A model generated the notes under the pieces. The model did no database searches. It saw only the letters and a program-made list of their open reading frames with translations, and was not told the origin of the DNA. Below, piece by piece: positions 8,656-25,170 of a DNA stretch of 41,319 bases. The translations under genes were made by a program, and so were the position numbers. Origin of the DNA: Opitutia bacterium (GTDB lineage: Bacteria; Verrucomicrobiota; Verrucomicrobiia; Opitutales; T3Sed10-336); the NCBI GenBank assembly GCA_003566375.1, contig PXDN01000113.1:1-41319 (forward strand), read 5' to 3'. The stretch's first letter is position 1; each line of letters opens with the position of its first letter.

Positions 8656-9342
8656 TTAGCCGTTTTTGCGTCGCCGCCAAATCAACAAGCCCCCCGCCGC
8701 CAAACCAAAGACCAGTCCGATGACACCGGGCTCCGGGATCACGGTGCCAGTGAATTGGACTTCATCCAGCATGTGCCAGGCGGAACGGTTTTCACCCCAT
8801 TCGGTGCCCGGACCCTGCCGGAAATCGAGACGCACGAAGGAGGCGGTGTGGCCGGTCAAGTCGATTTCCAGCAATCGCGAGAAAACCGCGAAACCTTCGG
8901 GATGATTCGAACCGTCAAATCCGGTGTAAGCCTGGGCCGGGCCGAAGTTCACGCCGTCCGGACTAAAAGAAACCCAAACTTCTTCGGGAGCTCTCACTCC
9001 GGCTCCCGGCCAAAGGGCATAGCTGATCTCCACCGAAGTCAGATCGTACACATCGCCCAGCGAGAAATCGATGGTGGGATGCGGCGTGCCGGGATCGGCC
9101 GGATTTTGAATCCAGCCGACCACGAAATCCGCGAACCCCGTGCTGGTGGAGGACGGGGGCACCCGGACTCCGTCGGTAAGCTTGGTCAGGTCGTTGTCCG
9201 GATAGCTGGTGCTGGGGGCTTTGTCGAAGGTGTAGGCGACCCCGTTGATCACGGCGGCGCCGGCCGGAACTCCGGTCAGCGCGAGAGCGAGCAGGGCGGC
9301 GGTAAACCCCCCGGCGAATCGTTTGAGGATGGATGTTTGCAT
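8656..9342 (-). CDS. Secreted discoidin-like protein with PEP-CTERM sorting signal
   Basis: The 228-residue product has a signal peptide (MQTSILKRFAGGFTAALLALALTGVPAGAA). A beta-rich F5/8 type C (discoidin)-like domain of about 165 residues follows, containing DLTKLTDGV, GWIQNPADPG, GVRAPEEVWVSFSPDG and VRLDFRQGPG. The C-terminus is a textbook PEP-CTERM tail: PEPG, a hydrophobic helix (VIGLVFGLAAGGLLIW) and RRRK. This implies export, then processing and anchoring or release by an exosortase not seen in this window. The domain is a close paralogue of the next gene upstream. Sugar binding is the usual role of this fold and is inferred. A TTG 21 nt further upstream (9363) is an alternative start. 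Confidence 0.88.
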   Translation of the reverse strand: MQTSILKRFAGGFTAALLALALTGVPAGAAVINGVAYTFDKAPSTSYPDNDLTKLTDGVRVPPSSTSTGFADFVVGWIQNPADPGTPHPTIDFSLGDVYDLTSVEISYALWPGAGVRAPEEVWVSFSPDGVNFGPAQAYTGFDGSNHPEGFAVFSRLLEIDLTGHTASFVRLDFRQGPGTEWGENRSAWHMLDEVQFTGTVIPEPGVIGLVFGLAAGGLLIWRRRKNG

Positions 9343-9415
9343 GGTGTTGTTGGTTGGTTTCAATGATGTTGAGTTTAATGATTGCGGATCGAAAGGTTGT
9401 TGGCCGCGAGATGCT

Positions 9416-10243
9416 TCATGGGGTGGTCATCACCCGGAAGAAGCCGCGTCCCTCGGTTTTAATCGACCGGAAAAGGCGGTAATCCCCGCCGTTCCCCAGA
9501 ATCGGATCTCCCCAGTTTTCCCATTCGGCTAAATCCGGAGAGGTTTGGATTTGGTAAACGCGGCCCATCTCGGTCGGAAATTCCAATTCGACCGCCTGGT
9601 GCAGGGAAGCCGCGGTAGGGTTGTCCAGATTGTCAATGGCGGTTCCGGTGAACGAAACCTCGTCCAACCAATGCCAGGAAGAGCGGTTGGGTCCCCATGT
9701 TTCTCCCGGCCCTTGCCGGAAATCGAGTTTCACCTGGCGGGCCGGTTTGCTGTTGAGATCGATGTCGAGGGAGCGGGTGTACATGGTGAACCCGGCATCA
9801 TGATTGCTCCCGTCGAATCCGGTGTGGATTTCTTCCAACAAAAACTCCACCCCGTCGAAACTGACCGAGACCCGGACTTCATGCGGCGCGCGCACCCCGG
9901 CATCGGGCCACAGGACGTAGTTGATTCGCACCGAGTCCAAGTAATGGCCTTCGCCCAAATCAAAAACGATGGCGGGCAGGGGCTTTTCCGGATCGGCCGG
10001 GTTTTGCAGCCACCCAACCTCGGCGCCCAGAGGAGAAGGCTGGCCGGAACTCCAATAGGAATCCGGCACGGTGACGCCGTCAGTCAGTTTGGTGAGATCG
10101 GGATCATCACGGTTAACATTCGGCGCGGTGAGATAGTGGTAGGAGACCACTTCCACCGGAGAAGATGCATGAGCCGGGGCGGCGGCCAGGGCCATGACGA
10201 GAAGCGAAACGGAGGAGAGACGGATCAGGGATCTGAGTTTCAT
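9416..10243 (-). CDS. Secreted discoidin-like paralogue with a C-terminal FFRV-type domain
   Basis: The 275-residue product starts MKLRSLIRLSSVSLLVMALAAAPAHA, a clear signal peptide. Its discoidin-like domain (about residues 30-205) matches the neighbouring PEP-CTERM protein nearly block for block (DLTKLTDGV, GWLQNPADPE, GVRAPHEVRVSVSFDG, HTGFDGSNH, LDFRQGPG, LDEVSFTG). In place of a PEP-CTERM tail it carries a beta-domain ending YQIQTSPDLAEWENWG...GRGFFRV, a C-terminal module I associate with secreted Verrucomicrobia proteins. A start 30 nt upstream (10273) would place ten polar residues before the signal peptide and is less likely. The two paralogues probably bind related glycans at the cell surface. 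Confidence 0.85.
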   Translation of the reverse strand: MKLRSLIRLSSVSLLVMALAAAPAHASSPVEVVSYHYLTAPNVNRDDPDLTKLTDGVTVPDSYWSSGQPSPLGAEVGWLQNPADPEKPLPAIVFDLGEGHYLDSVRINYVLWPDAGVRAPHEVRVSVSFDGVEFLLEEIHTGFDGSNHDAGFTMYTRSLDIDLNSKPARQVKLDFRQGPGETWGPNRSSWHWLDEVSFTGTAIDNLDNPTAASLHQAVELEFPTEMGRVYQIQTSPDLAEWENWGDPILGNGGDYRLFRSIKTEGRGFFRVMTTP

Positions 10244-10468
10244 AAAGAGGTCTGATGAAATGTCTTTTTCCATGCCGGCCCTCCATGGGCAGGCTTACGG
10301 GTGGCATCATAACAAAGCATGATGGGTTAAACAAATACCCAAACGACGGTTGTTTTTAACAAAAACGGCTTTCCCCTTGCGGCCATCCGGCTCCGCGCGG
10401 AAGGAAATAAGCCGCGGGACAAATCCGACGACCGGGTTTGTGGTCCGTTTGCTCAGTAACGTCATCGT
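10244..10468. promoter_or_regulatory. Divergent promoter region between discoidin-like gene and heparinase-family gene
   Basis: This 225-nt interval separates two divergent genes and should hold both promoters. It contains a 6-bp inverted repeat (CATCAT at 10305-10310 with ATGATG at 10319-10324) and a TTGTT-ttt-AACAA dyad near 10349-10361. No standard -35/-10 pair stands out, and I cannot name a regulator. Confidence 0.4.
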
Positions 10469-12679
10469 ATGAAAACCGCGCTGCCCGCCATCACTGCCAT
10501 TTGCGGCTTTGCCGCAGTCGCCATCGCTTCACCCGATTCCAGATGGGAGGAGTTTTCCCTGGATCCTTTGCATTGGATTTATCCGGAAAATACCGCTTTG
10601 GCCAACCCACCGTTTTTGCATTGGCATCCCCATCAAGGGGCCGTTCGTTATATCCTGCGCTTGCGGGGGAGTGGGACTGAAAACGAATGGGAGAGCCCAT
10701 GGAATTTTTACCTCCCGTCTGAGATTCTGCCCCCGGGTGACTATCGCGTCGAGGTGCGGGCCTTGGATGGACAAGGGGGAAAACTGGGCATTTCCCGCCA
10801 TTCTTTCACCGTGCCAGACGGGGCGGTGGCTTTTCCGGTATCGCTAAACCGGTTCGCCCTTGAACCGGGAACCGCCTTTGTGATCGATTCCGCCCAACTG
10901 GAAAAATTGCGGTCCGGCGCGGGCGGGCGGGCCGTTTACCGCGACCGGTTGCTGGAACTGGCCGGACGCGGCATTCCCGATGATCTGCTCCGTGCGAAGG
11001 AGCCTCCGCTATATCCGGACGGAGTCTGGAACCACGGTTTGTGGGAAGCCAAAAACAGCTTGGCCTATCGCATGGAGGACGGCATCACCCAACAGGCGCT
11101 GGCCTTTCGATTGACTGGTGAAAAAAGCCATTTGAACGCGGCGGTGGCGCTGATGCGGCAGGTCGCCTCCTGGCCGGCCACCGGGTCAACCGGAGTATGG
11201 GAAAGCGATCACGCCGCCCAGTCCCTTTTGCGGGCCTTGTCGGTGGGACACAATCTGCTGGAGGATCAATTGTCAGCCGCGGATGGGGCAAAAATCCGGG
11301 AAGCCATTTTGGGACGCGGGCGGGACATGCACGCCTTTTTGAATCCCTTTGTCGGTAAGCGCACCTCGGCCGGGATGATGAACGATCCCGACAATAATCA
11401 CCCCTGGTTCTGTGCCTCGGCCCTGGCCCAAGCCGGTCTGGCCCTTGCCGGACGGGAACCGGAGGCGGAAAGCTGGATCGCCTTCTCCTCGCAACTGTTT
11501 GCCGGAGTATTTCTGCCCCGCGGAGACCGGCATGGGGGCTGGCACGAGGGGATCGATTACTGGTCCTACACCCTCTTTTTTGTCTGCCAGTTCGCCGATG
11601 CGATGCGAACCGGAGCGGGTGTCGATTTTTACCGGCATCCCTGGCTGCGCAACACCGGCGGGTTCAAAGTCCTCACCCATCCGCCCGCCGGGGCGCACGT
11701 CCCGTTCGGCAACTGCCGTCACGCTCCTCCCGGCACTTTTGACAAACTGGTCATGAAGCGGTTTGCCTCGGTTTACCGTGACCCGGTTCTCTGGCGCTAC
11801 GTGGACGCGCTTTCGGTGGATATTACCCACGGACGGGAACTGGTTTTCGCTTGCCTGTGGGCCGGGCGCGACGGATACGATCCGGCCACCGCCACGACAC
11901 TTCCCCGGTATCAACATTATGAGGACATGGGCTGGGTGGTGGCCAACCGGGACCCTTTCGACGCCGGGAATCAGGTGGTTTTTGCCTTCCGCAGCGGACC
12001 CTTCGGGGGGCGGGCCTTTGGTCACGGTCATGCCGATCAAAACCATTTCATTTGGACCGCCGGTGGCGAAAAACTGATCTGGGACACCGGTTACTATGAT
12101 GGGTATTTAACTCCGCACAACCGTGAGTTCGCGGTAACCAGCGCCGCCCACAACACCCTGCTGGTGGACGGATCAGGGCAGAGTGTGCATACCGCGGGGG
12201 CCGACGGGCGCATACTTTCCCACGAACTCGAGGGGGATATCCTTCGGATAAGGGGAGATGCCTCCAACCCGGTTATTTATGGCGGACGGCTGGAACGGTT
12301 CATCCGCGCCATTAAGTTTGAGGATTGGCGGCGCTTGCGGATTGAAGATGACATCGTCGCCACCGCGCCAGCCCGGATTTCGTGGTTGTTGCAAAGCAAT
12401 TATCCCATCGATTTCGATCCCGACTCCGGCGGAATTGTGATTGAGGGAGACCGTCACTCTGTGCGGGGAACGTTCCGAACGGGCGGCGTGGCGGTCATTG
12501 GTGAGTTGCGGCACGGCTTTCCGGTCCCGCCTGACCGGACCCGGAGCAGGGGGCTCGAATGGCCCGACCAGTATCACTTGGAAATTCGAACGGTGGAGCC
12601 GGTTTCGACTTGGAGACCCGTGGTCGAATTCGAACTGAGCGGTCCGGTTGTGGACGCGATAGAGGCCGACAATCCTTGA
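10469..12679 (+). CDS. Secreted heparinase II/III-family polysaccharide lyase or related enzyme
   Basis: The 736-residue product has a signal peptide (MKTALPAITAICGFAAVAIA). A beta-sandwich stretch of about 100 residues (LHWHPHQGAVRYILRL, as in DUF4962-type modules) follows. Next is an alpha/alpha-toroid region (about 130-400) with NDPDNNHPWF and EGIDYWSYTLFF (Tyr364 and Tyr367). The C-terminal beta-sandwich carries the heparinase II/III signature, FGHGHADQNHF (His519, His521 and His526), then WDTGYYDGY and AHNTLLVDGSGQ. These His and Tyr residues match the metal and catalytic positions of family members that cleave uronic-acid polymers such as heparan sulfate or alginate. The true substrate cannot be told. 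It is divergent from the discoidin-like genes and likely acts in the same polysaccharide locus. Confidence 0.9.
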   Translation: MKTALPAITAICGFAAVAIASPDSRWEEFSLDPLHWIYPENTALANPPFLHWHPHQGAVRYILRLRGSGTENEWESPWNFYLPSEILPPGDYRVEVRALDGQGGKLGISRHSFTVPDGAVAFPVSLNRFALEPGTAFVIDSAQLEKLRSGAGGRAVYRDRLLELAGRGIPDDLLRAKEPPLYPDGVWNHGLWEAKNSLAYRMEDGITQQALAFRLTGEKSHLNAAVALMRQVASWPATGSTGVWESDHAAQSLLRALSVGHNLLEDQLSAADGAKIREAILGRGRDMHAFLNPFVGKRTSAGMMNDPDNNHPWFCASALAQAGLALAGREPEAESWIAFSSQLFAGVFLPRGDRHGGWHEGIDYWSYTLFFVCQFADAMRTGAGVDFYRHPWLRNTGGFKVLTHPPAGAHVPFGNCRHAPPGTFDKLVMKRFASVYRDPVLWRYVDALSVDITHGRELVFACLWAGRDGYDPATATTLPRYQHYEDMGWVVANRDPFDAGNQVVFAFRSGPFGGRAFGHGHADQNHFIWTAGGEKLIWDTGYYDGYLTPHNREFAVTSAAHNTLLVDGSGQSVHTAGADGRILSHELEGDILRIRGDASNPVIYGGRLERFIRAIKFEDWRRLRIEDDIVATAPARISWLLQSNYPIDFDPDSGGIVIEGDRHSVRGTFRTGGVAVIGELRHGFPVPPDRTRSRGLEWPDQYHLEIRTVEPVSTWRPVVEFELSGPVVDAIEADNP

Positions 12680-12819
12680 AAAACAAGACCAGGTTGATCA
12701 CTGCCCGAAAGTTGAGTCACGCCCCGGCATGCCCGGCCGATCCGTTCAAGCGTTTTAAGGTGGAGCCTCCCGCCTGACTGGCGTGGCCCTCCGCGTCGTC
12801 CGCTTCCGCGGGAGCGGAT

Positions 12820-13674
12820 TTACCCCAGGGTGGCGTAATCGATGGTGGTGAGGCGTTGCTGTTTCACCCCGAGGCGGGGAATGCAGGCGATGAGCGCCTT
12901 GGTGTAGGGGTGTTGCGGGTTGCGCAGGACCGATTGCGTTTCGCCGGCCTCGACGATTTTGCCCCGGAACATCACCACCACTTTTTCAGCGAAGCCGTTC
13001 ACGATGCCGAAATTGTGGGTGATCATCAGAACCGACATGCCGAGTTTGGTTTTGAGTTCCTTCAACAGGTCCATGATCTGGGCCTGGATGGTGACGTCGA
13101 GGGCGGTGGTCGGCTCGTCGGCGACGAGAAGCTTCGGATGGCAGGCGAGGGCCATGGCGATCATCACGCGCTGTTGCATGCCGCCGCTCAACTGGTGGGG
13201 ATAATCCTTGTGACGCTTGTCCGGGTCACGGATTTTCACCAGATCGAGGGCGCGGATGACTTCGGCGGTCACGTCGTTTACTTCCGGACGGTGGAGTTTG
13301 ACCGCCTCGGCGATTTGGTTGCCGACGGTGAAGACCGGATTGAGGGAAGTGGAGGGTTCCTGAAAGATGTAGGCGATCTCCTTGCCGCGGAAGCGGCGCA
13401 GCTCCCGCTGGCGGAGCTGGAGCAGGTCGAGCCCCTCGAAGAAAATGTTGCCGCCCACCCGGCAAACCGGCGGGGGCGGGAGCAGTTGGGTCATGGCGAG
13501 GGCGGTCACGCTTTTGCCGCTGCCGCTTTCACCGACCACCGCGAGGGTTTCCCCTTTTTCGATCGCGAAGGAGATGTTGTCCACCGCTTTCATGGCGCCG
13601 TCGCGCCCGTGAAAGGTGATTTCCAAATTGCGGACGTCGAGCAACGGTTGGGAGGATGCGGGTTCCGGTTTCAT
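12820..13674 (-). CDS. Peptide-type ABC importer ATPase (OppD/DppD-like)
   Basis: This is a cytoplasmic ATPase energising import of oligopeptides, nickel or related solutes. The 284-residue product has the Walker A motif GESGSGKS (about residues 48-55), a Q-loop IFQEPSTSLNP, the signature LSGGMQQR, Walker B LLVADEPTTALDVT and the switch His in MITHNFG. OppD proteins are usually 310-335 residues. This one stops soon after HPYTKALIACIPRLG, so the C-terminal peptide-transporter extension with its Cys cluster is short or missing. The ATG overlaps the stop of the upstream permease by 4 nt (ATGA), which indicates coupling. No OppF-type partner lies in the window, so the ATPase may work as a homodimer or with a distant subunit. 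Confidence 0.93.
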   Translation of the reverse strand: MKPEPASSQPLLDVRNLEITFHGRDGAMKAVDNISFAIEKGETLAVVGESGSGKSVTALAMTQLLPPPPVCRVGGNIFFEGLDLLQLRQRELRRFRGKEIAYIFQEPSTSLNPVFTVGNQIAEAVKLHRPEVNDVTAEVIRALDLVKIRDPDKRHKDYPHQLSGGMQQRVMIAMALACHPKLLVADEPTTALDVTIQAQIMDLLKELKTKLGMSVLMITHNFGIVNGFAEKVVVMFRGKIVEAGETQSVLRNPQHPYTKALIACIPRLGVKQQRLTTIDYATLG

Positions 13675-15766: not shown

Positions 15767-17551
15767 TCAGGGCGCCCAAATTTCGTCGATATTCCAGACG
15801 ACCGATCCCATGGTCGGAATTTCCACGTTGTTCCAGCGGTTTTTGAGTCCGGCGTAGGCGTTGGGGGTAACAAGATAAATGAAGGGCACCTGCTCGCTCA
15901 TGATTTGCTGGACCTCGGCCCAGGCGGCGAAACGCTCTTCGAAATCGAGGGTTTTCAATTGCCGCAGCATCAACTCGTCGATGCGGGCCTCCCACTCGGT
16001 GGCGGGTTGTTCCTGGCTCGGGTGCCACTGGTGGAGGCGCCCCCGGCTGTGGTAGATCGACATGCCTCCGGAGGGATCGATGCCGCCGGTGAAACCGAGC
16101 ATGCCGGCTTCGTAATCGAAAGAGGATTGGATTTTGGTGACCACGGTGCCGAAGTCGAGAAACTGGACTTGGACGTTGATGCCGAGTTCCTGCATGTTTT
16201 CCCGGAAGACCATCGACATGGCGGTGCGGATCGGGTTTTCGTGGTTGGTGATCAGGCTGAACGTCACCCGGTTTCCCTCCTTGTCATGCAATCGCCCGCG
16301 CGCGTCCCAATCGAAACCGGCTTCCCGCAGGAGTTCCCGGGAACGGGCGAGATCAAGTGGATACTGTTTCACGTCGGGATTGAACCAGCGGGTGTTGGCC
16401 GGACTTTCCGGCCCCCAGAGAGGCGTGCCCCGGTTGAACAGCACCCCCTCGATGATGCCGTCGCGGTCGATGCCGTGGGAAATGGCCTGGCGGAAACGCT
16501 GATCGGTGAACCAAGCCAGTTTGTGGGGTTCCACGTAAGGCTTGCCGTTCGCGTCACTGCCCGGGTGTTGGTTGAACCAGATGAAACTGGTCCCGGTCGA
16601 GGGGCCGCGGTCATGGATGGTGAAATCGTGGCGTTCGGCGGTGCGCTCGACCCAAATAATATTGTCGGGAGTGATTGCCTCCACGTCGGTCTCCCCATTG
16701 GCGAAGCGGGCCATGGCGGAGTTCTGGTCGCTCACGAATGTCATGACCAGAAAATCGGTGTAGGGAAGGCGCTGCCCGGCTTCGTCGGCCCGCCAGTAAT
16801 GGGGATTGGCTTCGAAAACCGCCCGCTCGCCAACCCGGAACGACCGCAGCCGGTAGGGGCCGGTGCCGATGATCTCCCGCGGGGTTCGCTGGGCGGTGCC
16901 GATGCTCCACTGGCGCAGCAGGGAGCCGTCTTCAAAGGCGTCGATGAGTTTGTGGCGCGGCAGGATTTCCCGGCTCATGTAGAGCAGGAACGGGGCGAAA
17001 ACCTCCGGGGTGGTGATCCGCACGGTGTGCTCGTCGATCTTTTCCACTTCGAACGGTTCGCCGTCCACCGACAAATCGTAGGCGCCGCGGTTGGGGTACC
17101 GTTCATCGTAGATTGCTTGGAAAGTGAACACCACGTCCCCGGCGGTGAAGGGATGGCCGTCGCTCCAAAGCACGCCCCGGCGAAGGTGAAAGATGAAGGT
17201 TTTTTGATCTTCGGAAATCTCCCACGAGCGGGCGAGCCCCGGCACGACCTCTTCCCGCACCGGGTCGTAGCGGGTCAAGCCGTCCATCAACAGGGCGATG
17301 GCCTCGCTGGAGGGCGCGTCCTCGGCCACCAGTTTGTTGAAGGTGTTGGGCGCTCCCGGCGAACTTTGCACGAAAACACTGCCCGGCTTGCCCGGCGCGG
17401 AGACCGAACGGTCCGCGTCCTCCGGGATGGGATGGACCTCCCGCTCCAAAGTGATCTTGCCACCGCAACCGGTCAACACGACCGCCGCGGCCATCACGAT
17501 TCCCATCAAACTGTCACGTTTTGAAAAATTCACCGGGTAAAGGAAGGCCAT
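15767..17551 (-). CDS. ABC importer solute-binding lipoprotein, family 5 (OppA/DppA-like)
   Basis: The 594-residue product begins MAFLYPVNFSKRDSLMGIV with a lipobox ending VVLTGC near residue 29, so it is a lipid-anchored periplasmic receptor. The mature domain has the family-5 layout: FNKLVAEDAPSSEAI, the LVAGLA-like VVPGLARSWEISEDQKTFIFHLR block, FTAGDVVFTFQAIYD, and a C-terminal half with FRQAISHGIDRDGI and RELLREAGFDW. Ligands of this family include peptides, nickel and oligosaccharides, so the substrate is open. Upstream on the same strand, 76 nt away, is the solenoid/beta-lactamase fusion gene. Another in-frame start 30 nt upstream (17581) adds ten residues. Confidence 0.92.
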   Translation of the reverse strand: MAFLYPVNFSKRDSLMGIVMAAAVVLTGCGGKITLEREVHPIPEDADRSVSAPGKPGSVFVQSSPGAPNTFNKLVAEDAPSSEAIALLMDGLTRYDPVREEVVPGLARSWEISEDQKTFIFHLRRGVLWSDGHPFTAGDVVFTFQAIYDERYPNRGAYDLSVDGEPFEVEKIDEHTVRITTPEVFAPFLLYMSREILPRHKLIDAFEDGSLLRQWSIGTAQRTPREIIGTGPYRLRSFRVGERAVFEANPHYWRADEAGQRLPYTDFLVMTFVSDQNSAMARFANGETDVEAITPDNIIWVERTAERHDFTIHDRGPSTGTSFIWFNQHPGSDANGKPYVEPHKLAWFTDQRFRQAISHGIDRDGIIEGVLFNRGTPLWGPESPANTRWFNPDVKQYPLDLARSRELLREAGFDWDARGRLHDKEGNRVTFSLITNHENPIRTAMSMVFRENMQELGINVQVQFLDFGTVVTKIQSSFDYEAGMLGFTGGIDPSGGMSIYHSRGRLHQWHPSQEQPATEWEARIDELMLRQLKTLDFEERFAAWAEVQQIMSEQVPFIYLVTPNAYAGLKNRWNNVEIPTMGSVVWNIDEIWAP

Positions 17552-17627
17552 GTTGCTAAAGTCGCAACTCCGCTCTGGCAACAGGGAAGTTGCATGCCCC
17601 GGTTTCCCGTTGCCGGACCCGGGTCAT

Positions 17628-20600
17628 TCACGGCTCCATGCCCTGGACCAGAATGTTGGCCAATTGGTAAAACTGGGATCGGCTCACCGAGCGGCTTGTT
17701 CCGGAAAAATTGGTTTTGTGGGCCAGCACCAAATCCCGCTTGGGCACAATCATGATGTATTGGCCGCGCAAACCGTGGGCGGCGAAGGAGCCGTGAAACG
17801 GATCCTCTTCGTCCACCTCCCGCACCCACCACAGATAGCTGTAGGCCCGGTTGCCGGACGCGCCAGGGGTCCATGGAAAGAGGCTCTCCTCCATCCAGCT
17901 TTCGGGAATCAGGCGCTCGCCCTTCCAGACTCCGTCGCGCAGCATCAAAAGTCCGATCCGGGCCATGTCGCGGGTCGAGAGGGTGAAGTGATATGCGCGG
18001 TGAAGGGAGATCGAGGTGTTGCCGCCCCAGCTTTGGGCGGCCATGGAAAAATCCTGCATTTGCAGGGGGATGGCCAGATCGTCGCGAATTGCCTCGTAGG
18101 GTGTCTTGCCTGTCTTGGTTGTAAAAACGGTGCCGAGAGCGTTGAAATCCCAGTTGTTGTAAAGGTAGTGCTGCCCGGGCGCCCGCGAACCCCGCGGCGG
18201 CGCGTTATCGGAGTTGTCACCGGTGTTGGAGGGAGGGTGATAAACACCCGAGCGCGCGCGCAGCAGGTCGTGGACGGTCGCCCGTTTTTCGATTTCCAAC
18301 AATGCCTGCCGGTCGGTGATGCCGATTTCCCCGATGGTTTCGGTCAGATCGACCACCCCGGCTTCCACGTATTTGCCGAACATCATCGACAAAATGCTCT
18401 TGCGGACCGAGGCGACGTAACTGAGGTCGCGGGTGTCTCCGTATTCGAATAAAATCCGCCCGCCTTTGACCGCCACGAACCCGGTGGTGTCCAAATTGTT
18501 TAAATACGCCAGGGCTTCGTTGATCACCGATTGGGGAACCCCGGCCTCGGCCGGGTTGGGGATGGTTTCCCATTGCGCGCCGGGATAAACGGTGTCGCGG
18601 GGGAATTCGGTGGCCGAAACCCGGTGGAACGCGGCGTTTTCCCCGCCGGCGGGCAGGGTGACCGCAACCCGTTCGTAGCCTCCGGGCACGCCGTCCGCCG
18701 GGAGCACCGGTTCCGGCTCCGGGGTGTCCACCTCGGTCCACGAAAGGAGATCGGCGGTACTTTCGATAAAATAATCCCCGCCGCCTCCGGCGGGCCGGTT
18801 CCACGTCAACGTAAGCCCGTTCTCTCCGATGGCGGGAGAGGCGTTGGCCGGTCTGGATTCCCGCGGATGGCCGCCGAATAAATAATCGCGCAGGTTGGGA
18901 GAGCCGTTGCCGTTCCAATCGGCGAGGGGCGCGGCGTCCGGGCCGGTCAATGCGTGAGCCCGCGCCCAGCTGCCGTAGGTTTGCGCCGGCACCCGCCCGG
19001 TGTGGCGCAGCACTCCGTCTTCCAATTCCCATCCGGCTGGGAAGCGGGCGTCGGCAAACACGGGGGAGGAGACGGGCCACCCTGGCATGGTGAAGAGGGT
19101 AAAGGTCTCGTCCGCGGTCGGCTCGTAGCCGTTGGTGAAACGGACGCGCAACCGGGCGTTGGCGAAACTCACCTGGGTGGTGTGGGCGATGCGGGAGACA
19201 TCGTCGGGCCCGGCGATGTCCAGGTGGATGGTGGTCCCGCTGACAAAGGTGGAATTATTGAGGTAAACCAAACCGGGGTTGTCGTTGCCCGGCCGAAGCT
19301 CGCCGTTCAACTCAACAAATTGGAGGGTTCCGCTGCCGGTCACGCGTCCGATCACGCGCAGGGGCCGCGCGGAATTGGTTCCCCGCAGCAGGGCGGTGGC
19401 CGAGTCTCCCAGATCGACCGGATTGAAGATGGTGCCCGGTCCCTGAATCACGGAGCCGTGGCCGAGGCGCAGGGGCGTTTCGTAGTCACCGGAGAGGCGG
19501 GAAGCGTCGGCGGTCATCACCAGCGAGCCCCCTGCCGGGAGGTCTCCGATTCCGGTCAGAATTCCCGATGACTGAAGGGTGCCGCCCGTCCAAACCCATT
19601 CAACTCCCGGCGCGGCGCGCAGGTCCCCGTTGGTGACGAGGTGGCCTTCCGTCAGTTCCAGGCGGCTGCCGTTGAAAAATTCGATCCCGCCCACCGCGGT
19701 CAAGCGCGCGCCTCCGTCGATGCGGATGACCCCGCCCGACCGGGCGTTGATTTTTCCGGCAACCTGCATGGTCGCCTGGTCGTCGAGGGAAAGGGTCCCC
19801 CGCGCTCGGGAAGCCGGGGGAACCGGACCGATGCTGGCATCCCCCGAAGCTTCCAGGCGCGAGCCCTCCCCGTGGATTTCCAGCAACCCTTCGCCTCCCG
19901 GGGCGGCGCCGACCGTGAGTGCGCTGACTTGGCGCACCCGCGCGCCGGACTCCACCCGGAGATGACCAACGCCCATTTGGCCTACTCGCAAGTTGCCGGC
20001 ATTCTCCCACTTGGCATCCTCCCACAACAGAACGCTGCCTTCCGAGCCCGCTTCCATGCCGATCCACGTGTCGCCGCCGCGGCTGTCCAAAGTCGCGTTT
20101 TCCCCATCCGCGGAGATGGATCCGAAAGCGCCCGCCGCATTGCCAAGCAAGGTGAAGGCGGAGGAAAAGACGGCTTGGTCGCCGACCGTCACCGCGCCGG
20201 TTCCGGCGTCGCCCACAATCACCACGGCTTCAGATGGGGCCTTGAGAAGGCCGTTTCCGGAGAGGGTGATGGTGCCGCCGGCGTCCGCCGCGCCGTGACC
20301 GAGCGACAGGCGGGGAAAGTTTTCCACCACGCCGCCCTGCTCAATCCGCAAGTGGCCGCTCTGGCCGGGCCCGCTGCCGATCAACAGGCGGACATCGGCC
20401 ACGCTCCAGGTGGACTGGGATTCAACGCGGGTTTCGTTCAGAAGGAAGGAGTTCGCTTCGTTTTCATAAGGGGCTTCGGTGGTCAGGGTAAAGCGGTCGA
20501 TGTCGAGAAAGTTGCCGCCCAGGCCCACGAAATCACCGGCCGCCTGCAGGCGCACCGAGGTTGCCAACCGGCCCGTGCCGGTGGCACCGCTGAACAAGAG

Positions 20601-21182
20601 ATTCCAATCGCCAAAAACCCCCTCCCGGTAATGAATGGAGTATTTCCTCAGGTCACGGTTGAAGGAGAGCGCGATGGTGACCGTCTGGTTTTGCACCATC
20701 GGAAACAGGGGAGTCGGAGCGGCCAGGGTGGCGCCGGATCCTGAGGCGACCGGTTGCAGGGAGACCATGCCCGAGGGGGAGCGGGAGAAAATGACCTCGG
20801 CGGTGATTTCGGTCGGTTGTTGTGCCGCCGGTCCGTTCATGAACGCGATGTTGAGCCGGGGATTGGGGCCTTGGAATTCGCTGAGGTTCCAACCCGCGAT
20901 GGTGATGGAGGCGTGAAGCCCACCCTCGCCATCATGCCCGGTGTCGAGCCTCGACAGAACGCTGCCGACCTCCTGGCGAATGCGGAAAACACCGCTTCCG
21001 GTGGTGGTGGAATTGCCCAGCGCCTGAGTCCACGTGTTGGCGGGTTGGACTGCATTGGCGGCCTGATGCAGCGGTGTTCCGGAAGGGTCGTTGAACAACC
21101 ATTTGTGCAAAGCCGCTCCATGGATCGGGCCCGCGGCGGCAAGCGGGAAAAACAGGAAAGTGAAAAGGAATCTGCTGTGCAT
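17628..21182 (-). CDS. Secreted beta-solenoid protein fused to a serine beta-lactamase-family domain
   Basis: The 1,184-residue product has a signal peptide (MHSRFLFTFLFFPLAAAGP). Residues of about 20-260 form a beta-sandwich-like region. About 260-540 is a repetitive solenoid of the PEP-CTERM/autotransporter passenger type (GSVLLWEDAKWENAGNLRVG, GVGHLRVESGARV, GEGLLEIHGEGS). A passenger-end motif (RPGNDNPGLVYLNNS...TIHLDIAG) and a verrucomicrobial linker (DWNGNGSPNLRDYLFGG) follow. The last 300 residues are a class-C beta-lactamase/esterase fold with Ser925-x-x-Lys928 (SVRK), Tyr1008-x-Asn1010 (YNN) and His1136-Gly (HGLRG) in the KTG position. These three motifs are intact, so serine-hydrolase activity (esterase, D-aminopeptidase or carboxypeptidase) is plausible. 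No autotransporter barrel or PEP-CTERM tail is present. A TTG at 21203 is an alternative start. Confidence 0.88.
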   Translation of the reverse strand: MHSRFLFTFLFFPLAAAGPIHGAALHKWLFNDPSGTPLHQAANAVQPANTWTQALGNSTTTGSGVFRIRQEVGSVLSRLDTGHDGEGGLHASITIAGWNLSEFQGPNPRLNIAFMNGPAAQQPTEITAEVIFSRSPSGMVSLQPVASGSGATLAAPTPLFPMVQNQTVTIALSFNRDLRKYSIHYREGVFGDWNLLFSGATGTGRLATSVRLQAAGDFVGLGGNFLDIDRFTLTTEAPYENEANSFLLNETRVESQSTWSVADVRLLIGSGPGQSGHLRIEQGGVVENFPRLSLGHGAADAGGTITLSGNGLLKAPSEAVVIVGDAGTGAVTVGDQAVFSSAFTLLGNAAGAFGSISADGENATLDSRGGDTWIGMEAGSEGSVLLWEDAKWENAGNLRVGQMGVGHLRVESGARVRQVSALTVGAAPGGEGLLEIHGEGSRLEASGDASIGPVPPASRARGTLSLDDQATMQVAGKINARSGGVIRIDGGARLTAVGGIEFFNGSRLELTEGHLVTNGDLRAAPGVEWVWTGGTLQSSGILTGIGDLPAGGSLVMTADASRLSGDYETPLRLGHGSVIQGPGTIFNPVDLGDSATALLRGTNSARPLRVIGRVTGSGTLQFVELNGELRPGNDNPGLVYLNNSTFVSGTTIHLDIAGPDDVSRIAHTTQVSFANARLRVRFTNGYEPTADETFTLFTMPGWPVSSPVFADARFPAGWELEDGVLRHTGRVPAQTYGSWARAHALTGPDAAPLADWNGNGSPNLRDYLFGGHPRESRPANASPAIGENGLTLTWNRPAGGGGDYFIESTADLLSWTEVDTPEPEPVLPADGVPGGYERVAVTLPAGGENAAFHRVSATEFPRDTVYPGAQWETIPNPAEAGVPQSVINEALAYLNNLDTTGFVAVKGGRILFEYGDTRDLSYVASVRKSILSMMFGKYVEAGVVDLTETIGEIGITDRQALLEIEKRATVHDLLRARSGVYHPPSNTGDNSDNAPPRGSRAPGQHYLYNNWDFNALGTVFTTKTGKTPYEAIRDDLAIPLQMQDFSMAAQSWGGNTSISLHRAYHFTLSTRDMARIGLLMLRDGVWKGERLIPESWMEESLFPWTPGASGNRAYSYLWWVREVDEEDPFHGSFAAHGLRGQYIMIVPKRDLVLAHKTNFSGTSRSVSRSQFYQLANILVQGMEP

Positions 21183-21299
21183 GGAAAGATAAAGGCGGCG
21201 CAAAAGGAAATCCTGATGGTTTGTAAAATTGGTCCACGCCTAAATTGGGAACCAATGACGGCGTTACATTTGACGGGATTGGTTCGTGATTCAACTAAC

Positions 21300-21340
21300 A
21301 AAAAAAGCCCGCCCGGCTTCACGGGGGAAGCCGGGCGGGC
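21300..21340 (-). terminator. Strong intrinsic terminator after the 963-residue secreted protein gene
   Basis: A perfect 14-bp GC-rich inverted repeat (21307-21320 with 21327-21340, 6-nt loop) is followed on the minus strand by seven T residues (21306-21300). It lies 39 nt past the stop codon at 21380. It separates the large secreted protein gene from the downstream fusion gene, which must therefore have its own promoter in about 21183-21299. Confidence 0.9.
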
Positions 21341-21379: not shown

Positions 21380-24271
21380 TCAGTTCAGGCCGACGGAGAG
21401 CAGGATGAAGCGGCGGTCCGCCCCGGAGGCCGGCACACTGTCGCGGTAAACGCGGGTGGTGGTGCCATCGCCGTTGGGCGTGCTGGAGACTTCCACCGCG
21501 TCGGCGGTCCACTGGCCGTCCACCGAGCCGGCGACGAGCACTTCAATGGTGAGATCGTCAGCCGAGTCATCGGTGGTGAAGGTCAGGGTCAGGTAGTCCA
21601 CCCCGTCCACGTCTTGGATATCCCGCGTCGGCAGTCCCTCCAAGGTGGTGGAATTCGGGTCGATGCGCAGGGCGTAGTGGATTAGGTTGGGCACGCCGTT
21701 GCCGCTGAAGTCGGCTCCCGGTCCGATGATGGATTCATCGGTTATTCCGGGAAAATTGGCAGCCGCCCAGGCATCGTAGCCGGTTTCAGGAGCGTCCGTG
21801 GCCACCAGGTTGACCCCGGGATAGACATGGACCAAATCGATGTCGGCGTCCCACGGGTTGGTGCTGAAGGTGAGCAAGGTGTAGCTGGTGGCCGGGCCGA
21901 AGAGGTCCCCGTCCGGCCGTCCGTCCAGCGAATCGGAATCAGCCAGTTGGCCGTTGATCCAGATGTCGGTTCCACCGGGGATCAAGGTTTTGCCGGAGCC
22001 GTTCGGAGCGGTGTAGGCGAGCGGTTCGGCCGAGTTGTTCAACACCGCTTCGAACCGGTTCACCTGATGGTAGGCCCAGGTGCCTTCCGTGGTGCGGAAG
22101 AAGCCTTCATCCTGCCCGGAGGAATCGAATTCCAAACGGGAGAGAACGTTGCCCTCCGCGTCGAAGAACCGGGAGGTGAGCCGCCCGCCCCCGATGCGGT
22201 CGTTGTGGATCATGTCGATCCGCAGGGTGACGATTTCCTCCTCGAAGGCGTTGTGATGATTGAGGTTCCATCCGCGGGCCTTGTTGGTGCGCAGTACCTT
22301 GTTCTCCGGACCCTTGCCGAAATTGTTTTCGGTGTCGCTGGCGATCAGCAAGGGAGGACGTTCTTCGCCGGACGCGTCGTATTGGGAATGGAAGGTGATG
22401 CTGGTCAGGTTGCCGTGCACGAAGTGACCGGCGTGATTGCGGATGATGGTGGTCAACACGTCCTCTTTCACCTCGGGCGCCACTTCGAAATCGGCCCGCA
22501 GGTAACGGGGGAATTGCCGTTCCGTCGGTTCGCCGATGTGGGCCCCCTTGACCACTTGGACGTTGTCAATGTCGAAACTGCGAAGCGGGTCGTTGCTATC
22601 GATTTGAAAGTAGATGTTATCCATCAAATTTCCATCCGCACCGGATTGGCGGGCGTATTGGAACTCTGGTAACGCGTGCGTCCAGACGCCGGTGTTGTAG
22701 TTGTAAACCCAGACCGTGGCATGCTCGCCGGCGAGTTCATAGGTTTCGCCGTCGGGGCCCTCGTAGCTGAGGTTGGGACCCCACACGCTCTGATTGTTGG
22801 TGATCATGGCGAAATGCAACGGGATGTTGTTTGCACCGTAGGACGGGTTGACGGGACCTTCAAACCCATTGGGGGTTGGCCAAGTTGGGCCGGGACTGGA
22901 GTGGTCCAGGGCGTTGTCCGTGCGAATGGTGTTATTGGACTTGCGCAACGAAAGCAGGGAAGCGCGCTGACCCTCCGCGCGGGGAGAAAGGTTCACCCAG
23001 CGGTTGGCGTCGTTGCGGGGAAGCAATTGCGGATCCCGGCCGGGTATCAGGTTGTAGCGCCCGATGTAATCGAATTTGATGGTGTTGACATCGTTGCCTT
23101 CAAAATTGCCGCGCAGGTTATAGCCGCGCGCGCCTTCGAAGCGGAGAAACCGGTTGTCGGTTCCCATCCCAAATAAGTTTTGGGTGTCTTCCATCACGGT
23201 GACGGTGCCTTCGGTGGGTTCCGCGCTGGTGCCGGCCACCGCCCACGGACCGCCGACGGCTGCCGTGGCGGGAGCGTCGCCCGGTTGCTCAAAGCTGAAA
23301 TCGGCAAAGAAAACGGTGTCGCCATCCTCGGCCGGCGGCGGCGGGGGCGGGGGCGGGTCGAGTTCGCCGGGATCGGCCGTCACGGCCACGCCAAAGTGAC
23401 CGGCGGGGGCGGGCACAATTAAGGCGTAGCCTTCGTTGTCGAGTTGGTAGGCGCTGATCCCGACGCCGCGCTGGGCGATCAGCAGGTGGGTGCGGCTCGG
23501 GCTCAGTTTCAGCCCGAGCGGGCCGACCAGGTCATCCCGCAACAGCAGGTTTTCATTGGTCTGCAGGTTGTAGGAGTAGAGATTGCTGGGACTGCCCCCG
23601 GCCCAGACCGTATAATAAACGATGTCGGTGTCGGGGTTGTGGGCGAGCCCGTAGGTGGCGGTGCCGCCCGCAACGAAAACGGAGCTTGGGAAGGGTTCCA
23701 CATCCCGGTCTTGGATGTAGATGTTGTTGTCCATGGTGTTGTTCCACAGCAGTTGATCAGGGTCTTTCAGGGTCACGCCGCTATAGTTTTGGCCGGGCCA
23801 GCCGCTGACGACGCCAAACAGGTTCTTCAGGTTGCTCCCGTCCAAATCCGCGGAAAAGATGCCGTTGGTGTGGCAGGCGATGTAGAGTTTGCCACCCGCC
23901 GCATCCACTGTGATGTTGTGAACGGACAACAGCCCCGCTTCCGCTTCGGGATCGGTGTCGGCGGCGGTGATGATGGCGGTGGCGTTTTGGCCGTCCCGGT
24001 CGGCGCGCCAGACGCTGCCGTTGTTGTGGCCGGAGAAATAGATGTGGTCTTCGGTGACGGCGATATCGACGATAAACGTCCCAAGCTCGGTGGTTTCGAA
24101 AATCGTCACCGCGTTTTCGCCGTCGATGTCGGAAGCCCGGATGACTGCCGTGTTGGGATCGGTGGAGTATTCGGTCCAGTAGAGATCATGGGCCGCGAGA
24201 GAAGTGGAAAGGCCTATGGAGGCCGCCGCCGCGCCCAAGCCGCGCAGCAAGCGTGAAGTGAGTCTGTTCAT
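21380..24271 (-). CDS. Large secreted protein: beta-propeller-like N-terminus and duplicated beta-sandwich domains
   Basis: The 963-residue product begins MNRLTSRLLRGLGAAAASIG and has a signal peptide ending near LSTSLAAHD. Residues of about 25-310 look like a YWTD/SMP-30-type beta-propeller (LYWTEYSTDPNTAVIRASDI, YFSGHNNGSVWRADRDG, LYIACHTNGIFSADLDG). A Pro run (PPPPPPPP) then acts as linker. Two related beta-sandwich segments follow: one contains NLFGMGTDNRFLRFEGARGY and the other NNFGKGPENKVLRTNKARGW. Each ends with a strand naming an ordered interval (SFDIDNVQVVKG; ADIDLVHVYPG). The last 120 residues are the common verrucomicrobial tail (GNGVPNLIHYALRIDPNS). No catalytic motif is seen. 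An extra 31 N-terminal residues from an upstream ATG (24364) overlap the pseudopilin terminator and are unlikely. Confidence 0.82.
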   Translation of the reverse strand: MNRLTSRLLRGLGAAAASIGLSTSLAAHDLYWTEYSTDPNTAVIRASDIDGENAVTIFETTELGTFIVDIAVTEDHIYFSGHNNGSVWRADRDGQNATAIITAADTDPEAEAGLLSVHNITVDAAGGKLYIACHTNGIFSADLDGSNLKNLFGVVSGWPGQNYSGVTLKDPDQLLWNNTMDNNIYIQDRDVEPFPSSVFVAGGTATYGLAHNPDTDIVYYTVWAGGSPSNLYSYNLQTNENLLLRDDLVGPLGLKLSPSRTHLLIAQRGVGISAYQLDNEGYALIVPAPAGHFGVAVTADPGELDPPPPPPPPAEDGDTVFFADFSFEQPGDAPATAAVGGPWAVAGTSAEPTEGTVTVMEDTQNLFGMGTDNRFLRFEGARGYNLRGNFEGNDVNTIKFDYIGRYNLIPGRDPQLLPRNDANRWVNLSPRAEGQRASLLSLRKSNNTIRTDNALDHSSPGPTWPTPNGFEGPVNPSYGANNIPLHFAMITNNQSVWGPNLSYEGPDGETYELAGEHATVWVYNYNTGVWTHALPEFQYARQSGADGNLMDNIYFQIDSNDPLRSFDIDNVQVVKGAHIGEPTERQFPRYLRADFEVAPEVKEDVLTTIIRNHAGHFVHGNLTSITFHSQYDASGEERPPLLIASDTENNFGKGPENKVLRTNKARGWNLNHHNAFEEEIVTLRIDMIHNDRIGGGRLTSRFFDAEGNVLSRLEFDSSGQDEGFFRTTEGTWAYHQVNRFEAVLNNSAEPLAYTAPNGSGKTLIPGGTDIWINGQLADSDSLDGRPDGDLFGPATSYTLLTFSTNPWDADIDLVHVYPGVNLVATDAPETGYDAWAAANFPGITDESIIGPGADFSGNGVPNLIHYALRIDPNSTTLEGLPTRDIQDVDGVDYLTLTFTTDDSADDLTIEVLVAGSVDGQWTADAVEVSSTPNGDGTTTRVYRDSVPASGADRRFILLSVGLN

Positions 24272-24344
24272 GGTTGTTTTAGTGGAGTTGATCAGGAATC
24301 CGGAAGCAAACGGGCTCCCGAAAAGTGGAGAAAGGAATGAAGCG

Positions 24345-24380
24345 AAAAAAAAAAGGAACGGCATTTAAACCGTTCCTTTT
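24345..24380 (-). terminator. Strong intrinsic terminator after the pseudopilin gene
   Basis: An 11-bp inverted repeat (24351-24361 with 24370-24380, 8-nt loop) is followed on the minus strand by a run of ten T residues in all, four of them inside the stem. It begins 10 nt past the pseudopilin stop codon and ends about 75 nt before the next start codon on the same strand. The large secreted protein gene therefore needs its own promoter or readthrough. Confidence 0.9.
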
Positions 24381-24390
24381 AGTGGGAAAA

Positions 24391-25170
24391 TTAATAACCG
24401 CCGGTCCAGAAGACGTCATCGTTGGGGATGCGCAGTAACTCCTCGGCTGAATAGCGTTGGACACTGCCGTCGAAAAAGCCGACATTGGCTCCGCCGCCAT
24501 GGGGAACCAAAGCGTAGCGCTGGGATCCAATCTCACGGCTGTAAACCGCGCTCCAGTCGGAAGTTTCCATAATGGCCATGGTGCGGGAGGGCGCGTCCAA
24601 ATCGCCCACCGCCACATATCGCCCCGAATTACGGGAGACCCCAAAAGCGGCCGTGGCCACGGTGGCATTCAAGCCGTAGGAATAGTAAGTGCCCAAGCGG
24701 GTGGCGTGTCCGGGCAAACCTTTCCCTTCCAAGTCCGCCCATTGAGGGGAGGCGGGTAAGGTTGGCATGCTGCCGGGGCAGTGATAAATGGTCGGTTCCT
24801 CGGAATTCGACCGCCAATTAATCCCCTGGGCCCACTTTAGGCTCGGATTTTCAAAGCCGACATAAGGAGCGATGTAGCCGTGCCAAGTGTTCTGTCCTTG
24901 GGGAAGGGTGATACCGGCACCTCCTTGGTGAAAGGCGGCATTTTGCGGGGCGGGGAACCGGTCTTCATTTTCATGGGCGTACATGTGCAGCCCGTTCAAC
25001 AACTGGCGCATGTTGGAGGCGCAGGTCGCTCCGCGCGCGCTTTCCCGCACCGAGCCGACGACGGGAATCAGAATGGCGGCCAGGATGCCAATGATGGCGA
25101 TGACCGTGAGAAGCTCAATCAAGGTGAAACCGGATCGGGCAGGGTGCTGGTGGGATCGGAGGTGGTTCAT
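24391..25170 (-). CDS. Type II secretion pseudopilin-like protein with H-X9-DG C-terminal block
   Basis: The 259-residue product has a prepilin leader (HQHPARSG) cleaved before [19 protein letters not shown], the class III signal with Glu5 of the mature protein. The soluble part is of the DUF1559/G-like kind that Verrucomicrobia and Planctomycetes carry in many copies, and it ends [22 protein letters not shown]. Cys residues at CASNM and YHCPGS may pair. Such proteins are usually unlinked to the secretion machinery and often sit beside a secreted partner, here the 963-residue protein gene immediately downstream. The exact role is unknown. Confidence 0.9.

Follow-up and report, generated by a model that had tools for sequence, protein, structure and literature searches.

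A beta-solenoid protein fused to a serine hydrolase domain of the beta-lactamase fold in an Opitutia bacterium

A single gene of an Opitutia bacterium joins an intact serine hydrolase domain to a beta-solenoid in one unbroken frame, with PF00144 and TIGR04393 both matched above their cut-offs and with confident models of the two parts. It lies in a stretch of 41,319 nucleotides, referred to here as the window. We consider it probable that the product is an exported two-part protein, in which a solenoid scaffold and a working C-terminal serine hydrolase are combined as joined modules. Both parts are known, the one as a common enzyme family and the other as a solenoid type; what is new is their combination, which is conserved and uncommon. 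This reading draws on an intact frame, invariant catalytic residues, a conserved junction and complete modules on either side of it, together with the predicted fold.

An initial sequence-only reading had reported an open reading frame at 17628-21182 without saying on which strand it lies. The frame is real and intact on the minus strand, where its 1184 codons contain no internal stop, and the plus-strand reading of the same interval has many stops. An in-frame TTG at 21203 is an alternative start that would add seven residues. GC3 ranges from 0.70 to 0.85 and stays even through the junction between solenoid and hydrolase. Coordinates of the gene, its parts and the flanking features are given in Table 1.

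Table 1. Positions in the window of the fusion gene, its modules and motifs, and two flanking features.
Feature	Coordinates	Strand	Basis or remarks
Whole gene	17628..21182	minus	ATG at 21182, stop 17630-17628, 1184 aa
Signal-peptide-like N-terminus, ~residues 1-24 (MHSRFLFTFLFFPLAAAGPIHGAA)	21111..21182	minus	Judged by eye from sequence
N-terminal beta-strand module, ~residues 25-240	20463..21110	minus	Paralogue alignments; low-confidence model
Beta-solenoid with T5SS/PEP-CTERM-associated repeats, ~residues 241-625	19308..20462	minus	Model pLDDT mostly 80-98, and TIGR04393
Beta region and C-terminal module (module from ~726), residues 626-860	18603..19307	minus	Paralogues; low-confidence model
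Beta-lactamase-fold serine hydrolase domain, residues 862-1184	17631..18599	minus	PF00144, alignment, structure prediction
Ser925-Val-Arg-Lys928 nucleophile motif	18399..18410	minus	S and K invariant in 69 sequences
Tyr1008-Asn-Asn1010 motif	18153..18161	minus	Y and N invariant in 69 sequences
Third motif HGLRGQ (1136-1141)	17760..17777	minus	G1137 and G1140 invariant, H1136 variable (69 sequences)
Strong intrinsic-terminator-like hairpin	21307..21340	minus	Between upstream gene and fusion gene
Neighbour, outside the fusion: family 5 extracellular solute-binding lipoprotein	15767..17550	minus	Start 17550 or 17506

The N-terminus makes export of the fusion protein across the inner membrane likely. 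The beta-strand module behind it also occurs as a separate PEP-CTERM-like protein in another genome of the family (G003), and in the source genome an S51 peptidase (cyanophycinase-type; L012, G000:C350) is fused to the same module, aligning with query residues 14-233. Over the whole protein TIGR04393 scores 59.5 bits (cut-off 23); the match to the solenoid is best at residues 372-417, with a second stretch in addition. In the full-length model the solenoid is confident between about residues 241 and 620, and the N-terminal beta module and linker are of low confidence; a Foldseek search with this model gave only hydrolases among the 50 matches listed, and the solenoid can therefore not be named by its fold. 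The module that starts at about residue 726 is the usual end of other exported proteins of the source genome and is internal here, which argues that it needs no free C-terminus, at least in the fusion protein. The C-terminus of the fusion (...FYQLANILVQGMEP) has no PEP motif, membrane helix or basic tail, and the protein does not qualify for PEP-CTERM sorting by these features. Nor does it qualify as a type V autotransporter, as no barrel was recognised (there is no autotransporter Pfam match, and the C-terminus is the hydrolase), and we recognised no lipobox or anchoring signal in the protein sequence. Two further genes lie upstream, one (window 21380-24364) encoding a protein of 994 aa with LDL-receptor class B-like repeats and seemingly the same kind of C-terminal module, and one (window 24391-25170) encoding a DUF1559 pre-pilin-like protein close to the H-X9-DG cut-off. 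Elsewhere in the window, 8656-9363 and 9416-10273 encode adjacent similar proteins, the first with a PEP-CTERM-like tail and the second with a longer C-terminal module instead.

The hydrolase domain matches PF00144 of Pfam over residues 916-1162 (E 1.2e-18; 67.8 bits, cut-off 27), and when modelled alone with 69 aligned sequences it reaches a pLDDT of 95.7. Its closest PDB matches in Foldseek are Lsa45 (8dc1; E 7e-16), PIB-1 (8rlj) and 6-aminohexanoate-dimer hydrolase. The predicted fold carries the Ser-Lys-Tyr-Asn site, and the outcome that would have spoken against an enzyme, a fold without the serine site, did not occur. With the ATG at 21182 taken as residue 1, Ser925, Lys928, Tyr1008 and Asn1010 stand where the initial reading, which had listed them as kept, had placed them, and all are invariant in the 69 sequences. 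It had also listed His1136-Gly; the pair is present and G1137 is invariant, but the relatives have H at position 1136 in only 3 of 69 and R in 23 of 69, so that His1136 is no active-site signature. The K-T-G third motif of true class C (AmpC) beta-lactamases is absent, and HGLRGQ, of the family pattern xGxxGQ, stands instead.

The fused domain has diverged from its relatives. At three positions (944, 1021 and 1115) it differs from a residue shared by at least 90% of the other sequences, with T at residue 1021 where all 68 relatives have E, and its branch in the tree is about four times as long as usual (1.02 changes per column against a median of 0.25). The long branch and T1021 suggest that the substrate, and even the activity, of the domain may have changed; judged from the alignment, it is most likely still an enzyme, possibly with shifted specificity. 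The same two observations would suit an alternative in which the domain is a non-catalytic or acyltransferase relic that caps the solenoid in a structural or binding role, and the fold does include acyltransferases: macrolactin acyltransferase (6kjr) is a structural match, and the equivalog NF045925 (3-succinylated cholic acid synthase) gives a weak match (48.9 bits, cut-off 800), a score that does not assign the domain to it. However, the domain has lost none of the four catalytic residues and departs from few of the strongly conserved columns, which is unexpected for one in decay, and we regard a relic as quite unlikely.

Another alternative is that two genes have been joined by an assembly error or a frameshift, and the initial reading had pointed to about residues 800-880 as the place where such a join might be found. 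We found none there. The existence of both halves separately elsewhere in the source genome is compatible with an assembly join, but the frame has no internal stop, there is no break in composition, and an independently assembled genus has the same junction. This second genus of the same family (G004, contig C520) encodes the same passenger, linker and junction and the first ~60 hydrolase residues, with 37% identity to the fusion over 907 residues (12-918); its enzyme fragment is 58% identical to the domain in the window, and its identity to the other aligned members of the family is at most 52%. Its contig ends inside the enzyme part, just ahead of the catalytic serine, and the following gene is beyond the contig edge. 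Barring the same error in both assemblies, the G004 copy already refutes an artificial join, which we consider extremely improbable. A hydrolase on another contig of that genome (C298) was considered as the missing half of the C520 fusion and rejected, as the two fragments differ where they overlap and the tree places the C298 hydrolase with the C8 paralogue.

The ends of the two modules also indicate how the joined protein came about. Solenoid paralogues from the source genome and from G003 align with the fusion up to residue 857 and end eight residues beyond, and a stand-alone paralogue of the enzyme in the source genome (G000:C306) carries a signal peptide of its own, behind which stands the VFPxxxWExxxxPEAAG start that it shares with the fused domain. 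These ends and this start indicate that both partners were complete when they were joined end to end, a solenoid protein in front and a mature enzyme behind. The enzyme would have come from a hydrolase secreted on its own, without the signal peptide of that protein, and the joining would date to or before the common ancestor of the two genera.

We propose that a Sec signal would take the protein across the inner membrane. The N-terminal three quarters would then be a stiff scaffold, a beta-solenoid flanked by beta modules, and the C-terminal quarter a complete serine hydrolase, in which fold and invariance suggest that Ser925 is the acyl-enzyme nucleophile and that Lys928 and Tyr1008 act as general base/acid. 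Most likely the scaffold confines the enzyme to the periplasm, cell envelope or extracellular matrix. There it may act on a small and probably peptide-like compound by cleaving an ester or amide bond.

The downstream gene encodes a peptide-type binding protein, from which the initial reading had suggested hydrolysis and uptake of the product: the exported enzyme would cut a peptide-like polymer or conjugate, and the neighbouring binding protein would pass the product to an Opp-type importer. The two genes are on the same strand, and the gap between them (17551-17627, 77 nt) has no terminator-like site, both of which favour this proposal; the reported distance of 76 nt is 76-77 nt if the binding-protein gene starts at the ATG at 17550, but a start at 17506 is also possible. 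Against it, the opp cluster (SBP-permease-permease-ATPase in the window) is conserved apart from the enzyme: the binding protein is present in 46 of 188 genomes of the class and in six of the eight of the family, yet none of the 12 loci of relatives read in the class has an enzyme relative beside the cluster, and the arrangement does not qualify as an enzyme-importer operon. In three genomes of the same family (G003, G005 and G007) the upstream neighbour of opp is a divergent zinc-type ABC locus. The cluster in the window also lacks the second ATPase gene, oppF (window 12670-12830), which follows the first in relatives whose sequence reaches that far; an intact ortholog, with 77% identity to that of G005, is on another contig of the source genome (L207, G000:C287, 1511-2326). 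The opp operon is split in this genome, and the cluster looks rearranged on both sides. Since opp loci are conserved without the enzyme and oppF has moved to C287, the adjacency of fusion and importer is best read as a rearrangement. The G004 copy, ending within the enzyme, offers no neighbour for comparison.

The idea of a link to uptake fares better with unfused relatives in Proteobacteria. Peptide-type ABC transporter genes adjoin the enzyme gene in nine of the 11 annotated plasmid regions that were read (L195-L199, L201 and L204-L206), the genera concerned being Agrobacterium, Rhizobium, Ponticoccus, Roseomonas, Nitratireductor, Ketogulonicigenium, Sodalis and Pseudoroseomonas. The gene order is SBP-permease-permease-ATPase-ATPase, likewise at L094, L112, L137 and L139, and further frequent neighbours are M20 / M81 peptidase, MmgE/PrpD or LysR genes. 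The nine regions argue for a recurrent link between the enzyme family and peptide-type importers; neighbour statistics for the family across all phyla give no dominant partner. The case for including the window fusion in this link is weak: the proteobacterial enzymes whose N-terminus was read mostly lack a signal-like start and are apparently cytoplasmic, with one Roseomonas copy as a possible exception, and identity between their SBPs and the binding protein in the window is only 23-28%. Taking both sides together, we think it unlikely that fusion and importer work as a pair. More doubtful still is the specific form in which a serine amidase held by the solenoid works on a peptide-like polymer outside the inner membrane and so supplies the neighbouring Opp importer. 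For such an amidase, isopeptide or beta-aspartyl material is a possible substrate class, because enzyme paralogues adjoin S51 (cyanophycinase-type) and isoaspartyl-peptidase/asparaginase genes and because the N-terminal module is itself found fused to S51.

Our preferred reading, a solenoid scaffold exported together with a working hydrolase, would mount a member of a widespread and poorly characterised serine hydrolase family on a large exported beta-solenoid, with its modules in the reverse order to those of an autotransporter. The repeated position of proteobacterial members beside peptide-type ABC importers provides a testable route to the substrate of the family and is the most useful lead. 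If a solenoid-held amidase did work with Opp, the pair would be an exported version of the proteobacterial enzyme-importer partnership, in which import would come before cytoplasmic cleavage.

The combination is uncommon, as the initial reading had supposed. The architecture is seen among the sampled genomes only in the source bacterium and one close relative (G004); no other solenoid/hydrolase fusion was found among the 373 order-level and 388 phylum-level genomes sampled. As these sets are samples, more copies may exist elsewhere. We found no published account of such a fusion in the open-access papers searched. Long frames in four high-GC genomes (L098, L130, L116 and L104) were considered as N-terminal fusions and rejected as mostly non-coding read-through, because the enzyme's own signal peptide sits inside the frame; the frame of L098 runs on from an upstream one of prolyl-oligopeptidase type, but a signal peptide lies in between, and it was left uncounted. 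The hydrolase subfamily itself is widespread (Gemmatimonadota, Acidobacteriota, Bacteroidota, Pseudomonadota and others). In G004 (L033, C298, 2488-5692) a family hydrolase, an S51 peptidase and a second beta-lactamase-type hydrolase are encoded on one strand by genes that overlap or nearly do so, and two hydrolases of these types form one fused protein in G539 and G569. In the source genome (L035, G000:C8, 323-2546), divergent genes encode a stand-alone secreted paralogue and an Asparaginase_2 protein of the isoaspartyl-peptidase type.

Several known systems resemble the fusion in part. The stand-alone class C beta-lactamase-related serine hydrolases of the same PF00144 subfamily (SxRKS, YNNWDFN, xGxxGQ) have the same invariant residues and match the fused domain from WE..P..AG to its C-terminal end at up to ~50% identity, but they are mostly of 350-420 aa and without a solenoid, and the fused copy forms a long branch among them. 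Lsa45 (8dc1), PIB-1 (8rlj) and NylB (2zm7 and others) are the closest solved folds (E ~1e-14 to 7e-16) and have the Ser-Lys site, but are only 16-20% identical to the fused domain, and the matched chains, of 342-388 aa, have no long solenoid. Other multi-domain forms carry the enzyme with an extra domain as the fusion does, namely with Fib_succ_major in Sinomicrobium (L126), with an unassigned stretch at the N-terminus in L134 and, in G539, as two beta-lactamase-type domains in tandem, but none has a solenoid passenger. Conversely, proteins with T5SS/PEP-CTERM-associated repeats (TIGR04393), of which the source genome has several paralogues, share the above-cut-off repeats and the confident solenoid; those examined end shortly after the C-terminal module, without an enzyme, whereas the fusion has this module internally. 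Esterase autotransporters such as EstPS1/EstA (PMC5471204) combine an esterase-type enzyme with a type V secretion architecture, the autotransporter domain of EstPS1 being C-terminal at residues 357-640 (PMC5471204); in the fusion no barrel was found, and it is the enzyme that occupies the C-terminus.
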